The notes below the pieces were generated by a model. That model did not search any database, was not told the origin of the DNA, and saw only the letters and a list, made by a program, of their open reading frames with translations. Shown here piece by piece: positions 18,394-31,101 of a DNA stretch of 64,000 nucleotides (position 1 is its first letter; every line of letters starts with the position of its first letter). This DNA is from a virus. The stretch covers positions 1 through 64,000 of the IMG/VR virus record IMGVR_UViG_3300010334_000023, one strand, 5' to 3'. A program made the translations under genes and the position numbers.

Positions 18394-18803
18394 TTTTCAG
18401 ACTTTCCCAGCTGTGGATAGCCAAGATGGCGACGCAGTTCCTTGTCCTGCGGCTCAAAGCGCTCACCCCGGAAGAATATCCTGTAGCTTTCTGATCCGTA
18501 TTGGCCAATGCCATACAGCTTGGTAGCATCTGCGCCGTCCCAGCCAAGGAAGTCTTGGCTCATGCGGCGGAAGGTATTCTCTCTGCGATTGTAGAAGCCC
18601 AGAGGTCGTATCACTGCCTTTACCTCATCCGGATCACTGGCAAGATATGCCTCGGGTGTGGGCCAGCGCTCAAGGAACTCTGGCAGCACCGTTTTCACAG
18701 GTTTGCGGCCCGTTTGATTGAGCATCACAACACCTATCATATGTTGCCATGGGCCGTTGATCTGCTGTTGGACCATGAGATCATCACGCAGTGGCTGTGC
18801 CAT
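18390..18803 (-). CDS. MBD4-like HhH DNA glycosylase
   Basis: This 137-residue HhH-GPD protein resembles the catalytic domain of MBD4, which removes thymine or uracil from G:T/G:U mismatches. Aligning features are WQHMIGVVMLNQTGRK near 19-34, PLGFYNRRENTF at 67-78, the hairpin-helix-hairpin LYGIGQYGSESYRIF (97-110), and catalytic Asp120 in FEPQDKELRRHL. No Fe-S cluster cysteines of the EndoIII type are present, as expected for MBD4. It overlaps the S4-domain gene by 20 bp. Possible roles are repair of deaminated bases or attack on modified host DNA. Confidence 0.85.
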   Translation of the reverse strand: MAQPLRDDLMVQQQINGPWQHMIGVVMLNQTGRKPVKTVLPEFLERWPTPEAYLASDPDEVKAVIRPLGFYNRRENTFRRMSQDFLGWDGADATKLYGIGQYGSESYRIFFRGERFEPQDKELRRHLGYPQLGKSEK

Positions 18804-19026
18804 GTACCTTGCTCACGTCTATGCCTAGCAGATAGAATTGCTTGCGGTCTGGTGTGACGAACACGTATGTGTTTGGATCAGTTACTTTTTGATCGTTGAT
18901 GCGTATGCCACCCTGTGCGATCAGCCTGCGGCCTTCGCCCTTGCTCTTGGTCCAACCCATCTGTACCATGAGGTCAACCAACTCGTGCGCCGTGCACCAT
19001 TCAATGACTTCTTCAACGGTCATCAC
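18784..19026 (-). CDS. Stand-alone S4 RNA-binding domain protein
   Basis: This 80-residue protein contains LVDLMVQMGWTKSKGEGRR and then LIAQGGIRINDQKVTD, a very good S4 domain, closest in style to the C-terminal S4 domain of tyrosyl-tRNA synthetase. S4 domains bind structured RNA in ribosomal proteins, pseudouridine synthases and Hsp15-type ribosome rescue factors. As a lone domain it could target rRNA, tRNA or the phage tmRNA; this is inference. Confidence 0.8.
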   Translation of the reverse strand: MMTVEEVIEWCTAHELVDLMVQMGWTKSKGEGRRLIAQGGIRINDQKVTDPNTYVFVTPDRKQFYLLGIDVSKVHGTATA

Positions 19027-26179: not shown

Positions 26180-26859
26180 AGCGGGTAAATGGTGCCGTAG
26201 TTTGCGGCTGCCAACAGCTCACGTGTCTTGGCAGTCTTGCGTCCGGTTACCTGCAGGGCTGGACGTATCTTGCGGCTGGCATTGGCCGTGGCATGAGGCA
26301 CGTTAGGCCAATCAAACACATGCGCATCGCCTGCGCGCCACCTGTCATAGACCAAGTTGCCATACATGTAGAACTGTCCAGGTTCCCAGTCCTCTAGCAT
26401 CACCGTGAGCCTTATCACGTTGTCAGGTTCAGCATCCACGTCCCAGAGCTTGTCTATGTGCATGTTAAACATGTCACCCAGCTTCTGCACATGAACTCGT
26501 ATCTTTGGCTGCTCTATGGCAAAGAAATCAACCATCTTGCTGAGAACTGGATAGTCACTCAGCTGATCCCACATGTGAGTTATGGTCATCTTGGGATCAC
26601 CGCCTACCACAGCTATGTCTCTTTCCTCTTGGGCCAGCATGGGGCTATAACGCAGATCGTTTGGTCCGTAGAACTTGCGAGTCTCCCAGTTCATGGGCAG
26701 TGCTTTGGTCTTGATGTCGTCAATCTCAGCCTGCCAGTCCCCGGTAAATCTACCAAGCTTGGTGAACCAATCGCCCGGTCTGTCCTCGCGCCACTTGTCA
26801 AAATGGTAGTTGCTGCGCTCAACTGTCCAAGCCCAGCTGCTGTCATGTTCCTGTGTCAT
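26176..26859 (-). CDS. 2OG-Fe(II) oxygenase-like protein (AspH type)
   Basis: This 227-residue protein has MHIDKLWD (H-x-D) near 133-140, an FxMYGNLVYDRWRAGDAHVF beta-strand pair, then VPHATANASRKIRPALQVTG with the distal His and an Arg for 2-oxoglutarate. This is the double-stranded beta-helix layout of aspartyl/asparaginyl beta-hydroxylase-like enzymes. It lies inside the symporter-amidohydrolase operon with 4 bp overlaps on both sides, so a protein or small-molecule hydroxylation step tied to that cassette is possible. Confidence 0.75.
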   Translation of the reverse strand: MTQEHDSSWAWTVERSNYHFDKWREDRPGDWFTKLGRFTGDWQAEIDDIKTKALPMNWETRKFYGPNDLRYSPMLAQEERDIAVVGGDPKMTITHMWDQLSDYPVLSKMVDFFAIEQPKIRVHVQKLGDMFNMHIDKLWDVDAEPDNVIRLTVMLEDWEPGQFYMYGNLVYDRWRAGDAHVFDWPNVPHATANASRKIRPALQVTGRKTAKTRELLAAANYGTIYPL

Positions 26860-27866
26860 CTGTCTGTGTCTTTCTCTATGAACAATCTCTGTGCGTTCTT
26901 GTAGGCTATCTGCTCTGCCACATCAGCGTCAAGCTGTCCTAGTATCTCGCGCCAAGTGTCAATGATGATGTCATAGTGCTGCCAGCGCCAGTCCTTGTGG
27001 CAATCAGTGGCAAACAGCATGCGATCGGGCCACTTGGTCATGATGTGTCGCCACTGGTAATTTATCCTGCCATCGAGGTCTATCACCGGAGAACCCAGCT
27101 TGCTCTGTTTCTGCTTGCTGGTTGGTCCCGCGCCATTGGGCCAGAAACCTCGCCAAGTGTACCACCACCGCCCCACGTGTATGAGATCCTTCTTGCTCAG
27201 CAACAGATACACGTTGTCAAAGCGGTTAAGCAGCTCATTGCTGTAGACGGCACGTCCAAACCCACAGTGCGCGATCATAAAGTTGATGCGGGGGTATCGC
27301 TCGAACAGTGCGAAGAATCCAGGATGGTCTCGCTCCCAGTCATAGAACTCCCAGTGAAGCATCACCGGAATGCCCTTGCCGTCCAGTGCGTCCATGAGAT
27401 CAAGGAAGTTAGGCGACAAGGGATTGATGTAGCGTTCACCACGCAGCGTGGTTTCGTTGCCCCACTTGCCCGGATGCTTGTCGGCATGCACGCACTGCAG
27501 TTCGCCTATGAAGTGATAGAGGCCGCTGTCGCAGCCAGCTATGGCCTGCTCCACGAAACGCGCCCTGATATCATCCCTGTGATCAAAGCCTTTGGGTGCT
27601 CCCAGCACGAACATGTCAGGATATCGATTCTTGATATCTATCATGTGTTGCGTGCTGTCGTGTGGCTGCTGCTGCCTAGCAAAGATCATCATCTGGATGA
27701 CGTTGTGCTGGTGCATCTTGGCCACAACGTCCTCGCCGGATCTGGTAGCACTGAACTGCATCATGGCATCTATCAGAGGACCTTCATACTTCTTGCGCGG
27801 TCCACAGAAAAGACCGTTCAACTTGATCCTCAGATATTTCGCCGCGTTCTTGACGTCTGACCACAT
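26856..27866 (-). CDS. Amidohydrolase-family protein (amidohydrolase 2 type) lacking the HxH motif
   Basis: This 336-residue TIM-barrel protein resembles amidohydrolase-2 (ACMSD-like) hydrolases or decarboxylases. Visible barrel motifs are FIGELQ (Glu), PVMLHWEF (His), FMIAHCGFG (His) and MLFATDCHKDW (Asp). The usual strand-1 IDxHxH is replaced by LIDAMMQF, so two metal ligands are missing. It may be inactive, use a different metal set, or bind rather than turn over ligand. It is coupled to the oxygenase gene and 22 bp after the symporter gene. Substrate unknown. Confidence 0.75.
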   Translation of the reverse strand: MWSDVKNAAKYLRIKLNGLFCGPRKKYEGPLIDAMMQFSATRSGEDVVAKMHQHNVIQMMIFARQQQPHDSTQHMIDIKNRYPDMFVLGAPKGFDHRDDIRARFVEQAIAGCDSGLYHFIGELQCVHADKHPGKWGNETTLRGERYINPLSPNFLDLMDALDGKGIPVMLHWEFYDWERDHPGFFALFERYPRINFMIAHCGFGRAVYSNELLNRFDNVYLLLSKKDLIHVGRWWYTWRGFWPNGAGPTSKQKQSKLGSPVIDLDGRINYQWRHIMTKWPDRMLFATDCHKDWRWQHYDIIIDTWREILGQLDADVAEQIAYKNAQRLFIEKDTDR

Positions 27867-27888: not shown

Positions 27889-29346
27889 TTATATAGCCAA
27901 GGCAGCTGGCCGCGGAGCAGTGAGATAGCTCACCACCACGTTGGCCGCCGCGCTGCCGATCACCTGCACTCCTGTGCCTATGACCATTATCACTGGTCCA
28001 CCACCGAACAGCAAACCATACACATAGATCGGGCTGCCAATGCAGATTCCAACGAATGCGCCAGCATAAAAGCCCCAGCGAGTGATGAAGTTGCGTGCCA
28101 GCAGTGCGATCACATAGTTGCCAGCCAGTGACAGTCCTATGGCCTTGCCAAACATGAAGAAAGTACCGATATCCAATCCGGGTATGTTTGCCATGGCGAT
28201 ACCAACCGCTGCCAGTATGAACATGGCAGCGAAACCCCAGCGCATTGGGTTGTCGGCCTTGGCCGCGTCGTGGAAATCATTGCTGCTGATGGTAGCACTG
28301 GTCATCAATATGGTATCGATCAAGCTAACCAAACCGCTGAAGACCACTGCTAGATACATCAGTGCCAACCAAGGGCCTACCACGGTGGCCATCATGATGA
28401 TGTTGATGAACTGTGTGTTTGGACCAGTGACACCAACATGCATGCCAGCAGCCAAGAATCCAAGACCGCCGCCAATGATAGGCAGTGGCAACCAATAAAA
28501 TGGAGCCAAGATGAAAGCAGGGATGATGGTGTTCTTTTTCTGGCTTAGAGCATTCTCATAGAACGCATGATCAGTCCATGGTCCCATGAAATGTCCTACC
28601 ACGGTTGGCACACCAAAGCCCATTAACACACCCAGGGCGAAGCTGTTGCCCCAGAGAGTGGTACCATTACCCGTGACGCCTCCCAGTCCTGCCCACACCG
28701 GCTCGAGACCAGTGGTTCCGAAAACCGTGATGGCTATGATAGCCATACCAATCCAGATAACACCAATCTTGACCATGTCAGTGATGAACGTAGCCTTGAT
28801 GCCGCCGCGCAAGGTATAAACCAGCGCTATGGCTACTAGGAACACGCTGGTGATCAGCGGGCTCAGCCCTGTCAAGAACTCCACGCTCTTGCTGCCCGCG
28901 AACAGGCTGAACGTGACCTGCTGCACAGTACTTACGGTTATCTGTGCAACTATGATGAACTGCACGATCTTGCCCAGACGTGTGCCCAGGAACTGGCTGA
29001 GTGTATAGCCATCTGGATACTTGTTGCGGAAGTAATTCACACCAAAAGCAAATATCATCAGCGTCAAGAAGTTACCGATGCTGAAATAGAACAGTCCAGT
29101 TAAACCATTGGTATATGCCTGTTGTGCTGCTACAAACAGCCCCGGAGCCTGTATCCATGCTGCTCCTGCTCCCATGCTGCCCTGCAGCCAGCCTATCTTG
29201 CGATTGGCCACAAGGAAGGATTCCTTGTCTTTGTTGTATCCCCTGCTGTACCAGCTGGTCACAGCAAATATGAACAGAGCATAGGCCGCAATGACAGTGA
29301 AACCTGTCATTGGACTGAACATTGGGAACATGTGCGCGATATCCAT
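27889..29346 (-). CDS. Sodium:solute symporter (SSS family)
   Basis: This 485-residue integral membrane protein has about 13 hydrophobic segments and clear SSS features: SWYSRGYNKDKESFLVANRK after TM1, GAGAAWIQAPGLFVAA in TM2, and VYTLRGGIKATFITDMVKIG (the conserved SSS stretch with GG-x-A-T...TD). Overall length and layout match bacterial symporters for urea, proline, pantothenate or carboxylates; the substrate cannot be fixed. It is the first gene of an operon with amidohydrolase, oxygenase, DUF2061 and sulfotransferase-like genes. GGAG precedes the ATG. A complete transporter is unusual in a phage and suggests nutrient uptake during infection. Confidence 0.93.
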   Translation of the reverse strand: MDIAHMFPMFSPMTGFTVIAAYALFIFAVTSWYSRGYNKDKESFLVANRKIGWLQGSMGAGAAWIQAPGLFVAAQQAYTNGLTGLFYFSIGNFLTLMIFAFGVNYFRNKYPDGYTLSQFLGTRLGKIVQFIIVAQITVSTVQQVTFSLFAGSKSVEFLTGLSPLITSVFLVAIALVYTLRGGIKATFITDMVKIGVIWIGMAIIAITVFGTTGLEPVWAGLGGVTGNGTTLWGNSFALGVLMGFGVPTVVGHFMGPWTDHAFYENALSQKKNTIIPAFILAPFYWLPLPIIGGGLGFLAAGMHVGVTGPNTQFINIIMMATVVGPWLALMYLAVVFSGLVSLIDTILMTSATISSNDFHDAAKADNPMRWGFAAMFILAAVGIAMANIPGLDIGTFFMFGKAIGLSLAGNYVIALLARNFITRWGFYAGAFVGICIGSPIYVYGLLFGGGPVIMVIGTGVQVIGSAAANVVVSYLTAPRPAALAI

Positions 29347-29429
29347 TCTTTTCTCCAGATTATTTGATCATCACCGAGATGATATATGCTATATATGTAA
29401 AAATATCGGCTCTAGTGGAAGAAATCAAT

Positions 29430-30203
29430 ATGAACAGAAGAATAAACGAGCATCTGGTGAAAAATCTCAAGGCCACGTTCAATTTAGAGCGCTGGCGCGA
29501 GATAAACGAGCAAATCAGCAGAGAAACGCTGCTGGAGAGACTGCCATGGACCAGCAAGCGCAGAGAGAAGTTCACTCAGATGCTAGCCAGCACCTTTGGT
29601 GTCGCTGCTGAGCTGCGCGGCACGGTGGCAGAACTGACCAACAGCCTGGATCAAGCCTACTGTGAGCATTTCTGGCAGAAAGTTTGGCAGCCGCGTACCG
29701 AGAATTACACCTATACTGGTTGGCAGGCAGTTGATGAGATACTGAGCAGGAATCCAAGGTCAGTGTTGGACGTTGGCTGCGGTTATAACCAGTTCAAGAC
29801 CAAGATACCAAACCTAGTCGGCATAGACAAGTACAACCCTGCTGCTGACTACATGGTCGACATCTTGGACTTTGATGTCGACCCTGAAAGCTATGATGCT
29901 GTCATGGTATTTGGTAGCATAAACTTTGGCGACTATGAGGATGTGGCCTGTAGGTTTGCCAAGGTCTTTGAGCTCACTGCGCCTGGTGGCAGGATATATG
30001 TACGAGCCAATCCCGGCTACAGCCACCCCACTGGCCCATGGATAGACATATTTGCCTGGGACTTTGCCACAGCTCATCGCGTGGCCAAGGACAACAATGC
30101 CACTATGTTGACGTTCAAGCATGACCAAGATCAGCCACAGGATAGCAGCGTTGATCCGGGTCACGGCCAAGGTAATCGTCTTTATTTTGTCTATGAGAAG
30201 TGA
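29430..30203 (+). CDS. SAM-dependent methyltransferase
   Basis: From the ATG at 29430 (GGAAGAAATCAAT upstream) this encodes 257 residues. The class I methyltransferase core starts at SVLDVGCGYNQFKTKI, followed by VGIDKYNPAADYMVDILDFD (acidic ribose-binding end of strand 2) and YDAVMVFGSINFGD (motif IV-like). An N-terminal helical domain of about 90 residues precedes it. Target unknown; no nucleic-acid-specific NPPY/DPPY motif, so small-molecule, sugar or protein methylation is more likely than DNA. It converges with the tmRNA, only 2 bp from its terminal stem. Confidence 0.82.
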   Translation: MNRRINEHLVKNLKATFNLERWREINEQISRETLLERLPWTSKRREKFTQMLASTFGVAAELRGTVAELTNSLDQAYCEHFWQKVWQPRTENYTYTGWQAVDEILSRNPRSVLDVGCGYNQFKTKIPNLVGIDKYNPAADYMVDILDFDVDPESYDAVMVFGSINFGDYEDVACRFAKVFELTAPGGRIYVRANPGYSHPTGPWIDIFAWDFATAHRVAKDNNATMLTFKHDQDQPQDSSVDPGHGQGNRLYFVYEK

Positions 30204-30205
30204 GT

Positions 30206-30533
30206 GATGGGTTTATTCTGTTTCCAAGGAAACCCATCGAAAACTCATTGAGGTTACGCCGCTAGGCGAATCTCAGATGCAACGAAGTTGTCGTTTGCAG
30301 TTAGAAAATTGGACAATCCGGTTACCCGGAGGCGTGCCTAACCTGCTGACTCCTGCTACCCTTTACACGTCTGTCGATCCTATTTCGCCCCCATCAAAGA
30401 TACACACCTAAAGCTAGAATGCCTCATAGGGTCACGAAGCAACTAGGGACTTCAACCCTCGCATGTATCTATGGTGGAGGCGCCGGGTACCGCCCCCGGG
30501 TCCAGACCGCTTATTACGATGCTATCAACATCA
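30206..30533 (-). ncRNA. ssrA: Circularly permuted (two-piece) tmRNA
   Basis: Read on the minus strand, the acceptor piece comes first (about 30533 to 30472) and ends in the T-arm and CGCCTCCACCA; a spacer follows (30471-30393); the coding piece starts GGGGGCG at 30392 and runs to about 30206. GGGGGCG and CGCCTCC form the 7-bp acceptor stem with a G3-U70 pair and A73, the alanyl-tRNA synthetase determinants. The coding piece carries GATCGAC, a GTTAG/CTAAC pseudoknot-like pairing and the tag frame at 30298-30254. The spacer ends pair over 7 bp (30470-30464 with 30404-30398), as expected for a permuted precursor cut into two RNAs. A 9-bp stem (30206-30238) closes the 3' side. Permuted tmRNAs are typical of alphaproteobacteria. 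Exact outer ends are estimates. Confidence 0.93.
30254..30298 (-). other. tmRNA tag reading frame
   Basis: From the resume codon GCA at 30298 the frame encodes ANDNFVASEIRLAA and TAA. ANDN at the start and LAA at the end are the hallmarks of proteobacterial SsrA degradation tags (ClpXP recognition of the terminal LAA). Confidence 0.93.
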
Positions 30534-30534
30534 A

Positions 30535-30759
30535 CTAGGTATTTATAGCAGGTTTTTTGTACAAGTCAACCCTGGCCCACTCGCAGCTGCACTTAACATC
30601 GCAGAATCCCAGATTGCGCTGGGCGTTGTGGTACAGTGGTGCCCAATAGCTCCACTGCCGGTCACCACCCTGGAACTGGTGCAGTATGGCTTCGGTTGGC
30701 TTACCGCAATGGCTGCAGGGCTGTCCCTGGATCCAGGTCATAGTTGGAGTTGGCTGCAT
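30535..30759 (-). CDS. Small zinc-finger-like protein
   Basis: This encodes 74 residues with CSHC (15-18) and FCDVKCSCEW (52-61), a likely four-cysteine zinc site of the treble-clef/MYM style. Its start is 3 bases after the LSm-like stop, so they are co-transcribed. The 3' end of the gene overlaps the late promoter of the tmRNA. Function unknown. Confidence 0.65.
   Translation of the reverse strand: MQPTPTMTWIQGQPCSHCGKPTEAILHQFQGGDRQWSYWAPLYHNAQRNLGFCDVKCSCEWARVDLYKKPAINT
30540..30547 (-). promoter_or_regulatory. Late promoter (perfect TATAAATA) for tmRNA
   Basis: The exact T4 late consensus TATAAATA reads on the minus strand at 30547-30540. Initiation 6-7 bp downstream would start at about 30533, exactly where the acceptor piece is expected to begin. 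Confidence 0.8.
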
Positions 30760-30762
30760 CTA

Positions 30763-31101
30763 TCAAGCAAACTTGCTGGGAATGCCACCTGCGGGTATGC
30801 TCAAGCTGCTGGTCATGCTGAGATAGCTCTTCTTAACGCTGTCTTCTGTCAGAGTGATGAACAGCACATGGCTCAGGCTGACTTTGAGCTTGGCATCCAC
30901 GGTTACCGTGAGAGCGAAGCCAGGCATCAGCTGCATACCCATGCGGCCCGTGTTAGGGTCTACGCTGATCTGCACGCTAAGCGGCTTGTTCATGGTTATA
31001 GTGTTCTCGTCAGCTGCTGTGATCTTGGTGATTATCTCTTCTCCGCTGGTCATCTTGACCGTGCAGATGTCGTCTACCTTCCAGGATTTCTCTATGAGCA
31101 T
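30763..31101 (-). CDS. LSm/Hfq-like protein
   Basis: This 112-residue protein has an Sm1-like motif (VKMTSGEEIITKI, about 15-27), then TITMNKPLSVQI as in the Sm fold third strand and a long strand pair MGMQLMPGFALTVTV. Similar Sm-fold proteins are common in T4-like cyanophages. Sm-fold proteins form rings that bind U-rich or A-rich RNA. AGGAG precedes the ATG, and a TTGCGC-17-TAAAAT promoter lies upstream. Confidence 0.7.
   Translation of the reverse strand: MLIEKSWKVDDICTVKMTSGEEIITKITAADENTITMNKPLSVQISVDPNTGRMGMQLMPGFALTVTVDAKLKVSLSHVLFITLTEDSVKKSYLSMTSSLSIPAGGIPSKFA

Follow-up and report, generated by a model that had tools for sequence, protein, structure and literature searches.

A permuted tmRNA in a freshwater T4-type phage and the intervening sequences of related phage tmRNAs as a putative slot for protein genes

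The DNA analysed here (the window, 64,000 nucleotides of an IMG/VR virus record) encodes a permuted tmRNA, in which the acceptor piece precedes the coding piece and an intervening sequence (IVS) lies between them. Our main reading, to which we assign a probability of roughly 0.82, is that this is a working-looking phage tmRNA of the alphaproteobacterial type and that, in this lineage as in many marine phages, the IVS serves as a slot in which insertions are tolerated. The sequence anatomy of the RNA, the covariation of its acceptor stem and the coding signal of IVS open reading frames (ORFs) are established. Since the IVS of the window is itself non-coding, the claim that this slot carries protein genes rests on relatives.

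Results

ARAGORN called a permuted tmRNA with the tag ANDNFVASEIRLAA followed by a stop codon, and cmscan placed two Rfam models on the minus strand, RF01849 (alpha_tmRNA; 30573-30206, 129.8 bits, E = 4e-35, cut-off 50) and RF04321 (tmRNA_permuted; 30535-30254, 112.8 bits, cut-off 47). The agreement of these methods bears out the original prediction of a phage-borne permuted tmRNA with both pieces and a spacer, by the Infernal and ARAGORN check that it had proposed. As positioned by the RF04321 and RF01849 alignments, the acceptor piece (30472-30535, minus strand) comprises the T-arm, the 3' acceptor strand, A73 and an encoded CCA, ending in CCTCCACCA. It is followed on the same strand by the 79-nt IVS (30393-30471) and the coding piece (30206-30392), which holds the 5' acceptor strand GGGGGCG, a D-like region, the tag frame and the 3' pseudoknot/hairpin region; the RF01849 score of 130 bits extends across both pieces. 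The tag frame (30254-30298, minus strand; ARAGORN and Rfam) is intact, as predicted, with the alanine resume codon GCA and the hydrophobic end LAA. The acceptor stem of the window retains the G3-U70 pair and A73 on which the prediction had relied, as well as CCA; among the matches listed, all 151 viral acceptor stems have G3-U70, and in 149 of them A73-CCA follows. The ends of the IVS (AGATACATGC and GTGTGTATCT) do pair, forming a terminal stem that closes it, over about 10 positions including G-U rather than over the 7 bp originally given. Within the IVS, no ORF from an ATG is longer than about 7 codons.

This is the sole tmRNA in the 216,498-base record. No SmpB was found in that record, so rescue function would depend on the SmpB of the host. 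Upstream of the tmRNA, a 74-aa ORF (30535-30759, minus strand; weak DUF7573 match below cut-off) ends within the promoter and tmRNA start, and is preceded by a conserved 112-aa neighbour gene (30763-31101, minus strand) belonging to phrog_527. On the other side, the end of a convergent ORF (29322-30203, plus strand; weak methyltransferase match below cut-off) adjoins the tmRNA 3' end; the homologous ORF of one relative, L126, also matches a methyltransferase weakly and below cut-off. Two proteins had been suggested as possible partners of the RNA: the lone S4 RNA-binding domain protein (18784-19026) scores above the Pfam cut-off, and the LSm-like protein near 30.8 kb finds no support in Pfam or PHROGs. 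The window also encodes a sodium:solute symporter-family protein (27889-29346) and an amidohydrolase-like protein (26856-27866), which are unusual cargo for a T4-type phage.

Homologues of gp23 (E = 1.6e-80) and of the T4 portal protein gp20 (E = 2.7e-107) identify this freshwater phage as T4-type, in line with the original assignment. The late promoter that had been predicted fared less evenly. A copy of TATAAATA at 30540-30547 on the minus strand is a candidate T4-type late promoter whose predicted transcript start falls at about the start of the acceptor piece. Across the whole 216-kb record, exact TATAAATA occurs 8 times versus 15 for the reversed pattern; there is thus no enrichment, and presence alone is weak evidence. 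The position of the motif is better evidence than its presence and makes late expression of the tmRNA plausible. Another copy of TATAAATA lies 32 nt upstream of a long ORF that matches the portal gene gp20; of the NATAAATA sites that do not fall within ORFs, most are 13-70 nt ahead of an ORF start. At the tmRNA locus, TATAAATA is kept in 4 clade alleles and is degenerate (CTTAAATA) in several others.

Relatives were found via the neighbour gene at 30763-31101 (ten loci) and via a conserved segment with which the acceptor piece opens (13). Independent contigs retain the tmRNA at these loci, next to the neighbour gene that it has in the window. The acceptor stem covaries within the clade, with GGGGGCG/CGCCTCC, GGGGACG/CGTCTCC, GGGGCAT/ATGCTCC and GGGGCTG/CAGCTCC all represented, and the T-arm also varies between alleles. 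Despite differing DNA, the tags of the alleles read to their end are intact (ANDNFVASEIRLAA, ANDNFVASEIALAA, ANDNNVASEIRLAA and ANDNNVAFETRLAA); one contig, L374, stops within the acceptor piece, upstream of the tag. Because the stem changes are compensatory and the tag frames stay open, we take selection in the clade to maintain a functional tRNA-like domain and a functional tag. Some clade alleles (the acceptor pieces of L126, L129 and L130) have a canonical tRNA-type T-loop, of the GTTCGAATC type, in place of the alpha-type loop.

The pairing of IVS ends is general among viral sequences. Own ends pair at 10.3 positions on average versus 5.9 for swapped ends, and at least 6 pairs form in 97% of 125 viral IVSs versus 46% when ends are swapped between sequences (among the matches listed). 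Since the ends pair, any cargo would sit in the loop of a hairpin that extends the acceptor stem.

Do these loops encode proteins? The viral sample was drawn by exact-pattern scans, is weighted towards marine data and covers permuted tmRNAs other than the cyanophage type; counts refer to the matches listed. ORFs were picked by length from dereplicated IVSs, with dinucleotide shuffles as controls. Viral IVSs range from 8 to 504 nt (153 unique, among the matches listed; L353-L355, with 376-380 nt, were read separately). Bacterial IVSs span 10-165 nt and are mostly below 50 nt (n = 42, some chosen for length); 40 of these 42 measure 10-92 nt, and the two longer ones contain no convincing ORF. Among the viral matches listed, the dereplicated IVSs whose sense ORFs exceeded the shuffles numbered 16 of 16 at 200 nt or more, 18 of 39 at 130-200 nt, 3 of 11 at 100-130 nt and 0 of 19 at 60-100 nt, while antisense ORF coverage was close to the shuffled level. 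In chosen pairs from IVS ORF families, pN/pS is 0.16-0.44 in the intended frame, accompanied by third-position bias, and 1.0-1.5 for overlapping wrong-frame ORFs on the same DNA, which serve as an internal control. These ratios indicate purifying selection on the intended frame.

Most IVS ORF starts have a Shine-Dalgarno-like site (11 of 16 among the ORFs of the long IVSs, in the matches listed), and starts typically fall 7-20 nt past CCA, deeper in the largest family. The ORFs form about twenty groups including singletons, of which the commonest encodes a small, membrane-protein-like product (..WSICADI..LLAGII..), both among the matches listed. One family has a PHROG counterpart of unknown function (E = 3e-6); the remaining families tested gave no clear match, most nested ORFs are without a known homologue, and tblastn of two IVS proteins against INPHARED returned no match. 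Two alleles (L354 and L355) stack ORFs, two or three of them, within a single IVS of 380 nt, and their 5' end motif AAAGGAGATT appears again before the second ORF set, as if the entrance of the slot had been duplicated to add a gene. In L353, whose IVS measures 376 nt, a 55-codon ORF is followed by some 190 nt that look non-coding and contain the opening motif AACACACTGG again.

One recognisable cargo gene occurs in the window's own clade. Two contigs from two metagenomes (L369 and L372), identical across a shared 4.3 kb, have an IVS of 504 nt versus 79 nt in the window, and it contains a 169-codon ORF with the motif GFLDADGS and its own TATAAATA in front. This IVS encodes a recognisable LAGLIDADG homing endonuclease, judged I-MsoI-like from its sequence: the ORF, present in the IVSs of L125, L126, L369 and L372, combines the LAGLIDADG motif with similarity to solved members, and phmmer against I-MsoI gave E = 2.7e-6 for the single-chain form, 0.0027 for 2fld and 0.026 for 1m5x. 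It also matches phrog_5046 (E = 8e-18) and Pfam LAGLIDADG_1 (E = 7e-4, slightly under the cut-off). AlphaFold, run on the single sequence without an alignment, returned a pLDDT of 35, too low for the model to be used for the fold. The ORF stops about 75 nt into the coding piece, and the closing stem of this allele is weak, with 6 pairs. A sister allele without the endonuclease (L373) has a 77-nt IVS that resembles the window's. In the record of the window, a search run without a positive control turned up no copy of the endonuclease at any other position.

The conserved junction TTTGATGGGGGCGAAATAGG between IVS and coding piece offers three frames: one has TGA one base before G1, one ends ..MGAK and a stop, and one gives a longer run into the tmRNA. 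The stops of the significant IVS ORFs are TGA at the junction in 14, before the junction in 10, the stop after MGAK in 9 and deeper inside in 4 (among the matches listed). Cargo frames that stop only in the mature tmRNA include those ending ..MGAK in GATGGGGGCGAAATAG and those running further in, as in Melnitz and the endonuclease allele.

Discussion

As a kind of RNA, the window tmRNA is not new. The novelty that the original prediction had attached to it does not hold, because 53 of 133 phage tmRNA structures have already been tallied as two-piece (PMC9004378) and a core-pattern scan of viral contigs gave at least 119 matches. Taken alone, it is one more freshwater T4-type phage on a known list, preceded by Melnitz, Mosig and dozens of other phages. 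Melnitz (a Methylophilales phage) and Mosig (a Pelagibacter phage) have two-piece ssrA genes (PMC9004378), and are likewise T4-type with a permuted tmRNA of the alphaproteobacterial type. The window phage differs from both in being freshwater, in its tag, in its neighbour genes and in having TATAAATA upstream; the authors of PMC9004378 place the Melnitz tmRNA behind an early promoter. A further difference from these phages is that the Rfam scan of the window reported no riboswitch. The Melnitz tag, ANDNYVPVDYALAA, ends in LAA like the window's and is otherwise different. The 142-nt IVS of Melnitz (MZ577097.1) has TTGGAGAAGTAT followed by an ATG that opens the frame MFKWLSKTRLVVITRDYFRERNRKADAKIPKYLSGTRSVYD..; related frames exist in L026 and L060 and a similar motif in L120, and no CDS is annotated at this ORF in MZ577097.1. 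The permuted tmRNA of Alphaproteobacteria (RF01849, Caulobacter type) shares gene order, T-loop form, acceptor stem and resume region with the window; it differs in its tag and, in the bacteria sampled, in the IVS, which is 10-92 nt in 40 of 42 compared with 8-504 nt in phages (among the matches listed). An unannotated permuted tmRNA was also called by ARAGORN at 1937-2351 of Rhodobacter phage RcRudolph (OP009285.1), with the tag ANDNVRMDAQALAA and overlapped by an annotated hypothetical protein.

Nested genes in tmRNA loci have precedents of other forms. The accessible text of PMC11915505, which describes a 2025 tmRNA database, includes group I introns with LAGLIDADG genes in tmRNA genes, and there too a homing endonuclease gene lies within a tmRNA gene; those introns are self-splicing and sit in the T-loop, whereas the phage cargo occupies the IVS of a permuted form, would be removed without splicing and has its own TATAAATA. 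The same text names two occupied IVSs, one with a tRNA-Ala and one with a repetitive element, and within that text no protein genes are named; the tRNA-Ala is nested too, though it is a lone RNA gene, from one genome that is nominally archaeal. The open-access literature that we searched gave no precedent for protein genes within a permuted-tmRNA IVS, which leaves priority unproven.

How would such a gene work? Late timing, processing, rescue activity and translation of the nested ORFs are what we infer here. The tmRNA would be transcribed late, probably from TATAAATA, and in the folded RNA the IVS would form a hairpin that lengthens the acceptor stem. One cut behind CCA, and a second made by RNase P ahead of G1, would then yield a two-piece tmRNA. 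Together with host SmpB and alanyl-tRNA synthetase, this tmRNA would free stalled ribosomes and mark their products with a ClpXP-type LAA tag. A fate of the tag unlike that of the host's, as had been proposed, is not indicated, because its C-terminus is an ordinary LAA. The mature RNA lacks the IVS, which can for that reason hold protein genes; these small genes with their own Shine-Dalgarno sites would be tolerated as long as closing stem and acceptor strands stay intact.

It could instead be argued that this is an ordinary phage tmRNA and that the IVS ORFs of relatives are frames left open by chance in AT-rich filler. IVSs below 130 nt, the window's included, are mostly without coding signal, and IVS ORFs seldom match known families. 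Chance frames would nevertheless have to account for 16 of 16 dereplicated long IVSs (among the matches listed) that beat their shuffles in the sense direction and not in antisense, for the gap in pN/pS and third-position bias between intended and wrong frames, for the Shine-Dalgarno-like sites in 11 of 16 long IVSs (again among the matches listed) and for a product that is a recognisable homing endonuclease, and we regard this explanation as very improbable. Somewhat less so, though still unlikely, is that the RNA, instead of rescuing ribosomes, serves as a decoy for host trans-translation or inhibits it. The accessible text of PMC11915505 reports that the tag-less tmRNA of phage DS6A inhibits host tmRNA in E. 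coli, and a phage RNA from a record in which no SmpB was found would compete for host SmpB; against a decoy, the tag frame is intact, runs to LAA and a stop and is kept, despite DNA divergence, in the clade members read to their end, and G3-U70 is invariant in the viral stems among the matches listed. That the locus is an assembly chimera or a piece of host chromosome, a concern raised with the original prediction, has next to no probability, and both synteny and tags led us to reject it: several Alphaproteobacteria have an identical 27-base core, yet the bacteria that share it have other tags, such as ANDNEMALAA, and the locus recurs with phage neighbours and diverged alleles in independent contigs.

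The placement of stops invites a further idea. If RNase P cuts before G1, cargo ORFs that stop inside the tmRNA would lose their stop and become non-stop messages, which the same tmRNA might tag in an arfA-like feedback, so that the product would accumulate only if rescue is saturated or the precursor unprocessed. The model for this is arfA, as described in the accessible text of PMC10107115. That the IVS of phage permuted tmRNAs generally accommodates protein genes as cargo, and that for some of them maturation makes non-stop messages which the same tmRNA tags, is a speculative proposal by analogy, which we consider doubtful; compact packing accounts for the stop positions equally well.

If the reading of the IVS as an insertion slot is true, it would describe a new gene-in-gene arrangement that spans many uncultured phages, in which protein genes occupy the stretch of a split RNA gene that maturation throws away. 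The IVS could offer an endonuclease a home that spares the RNA from harm, and the capacity to carry cargo is a possible reason for phages to keep the permuted form of tmRNA. Melnitz is in culture, and the cargo claim is therefore directly testable.
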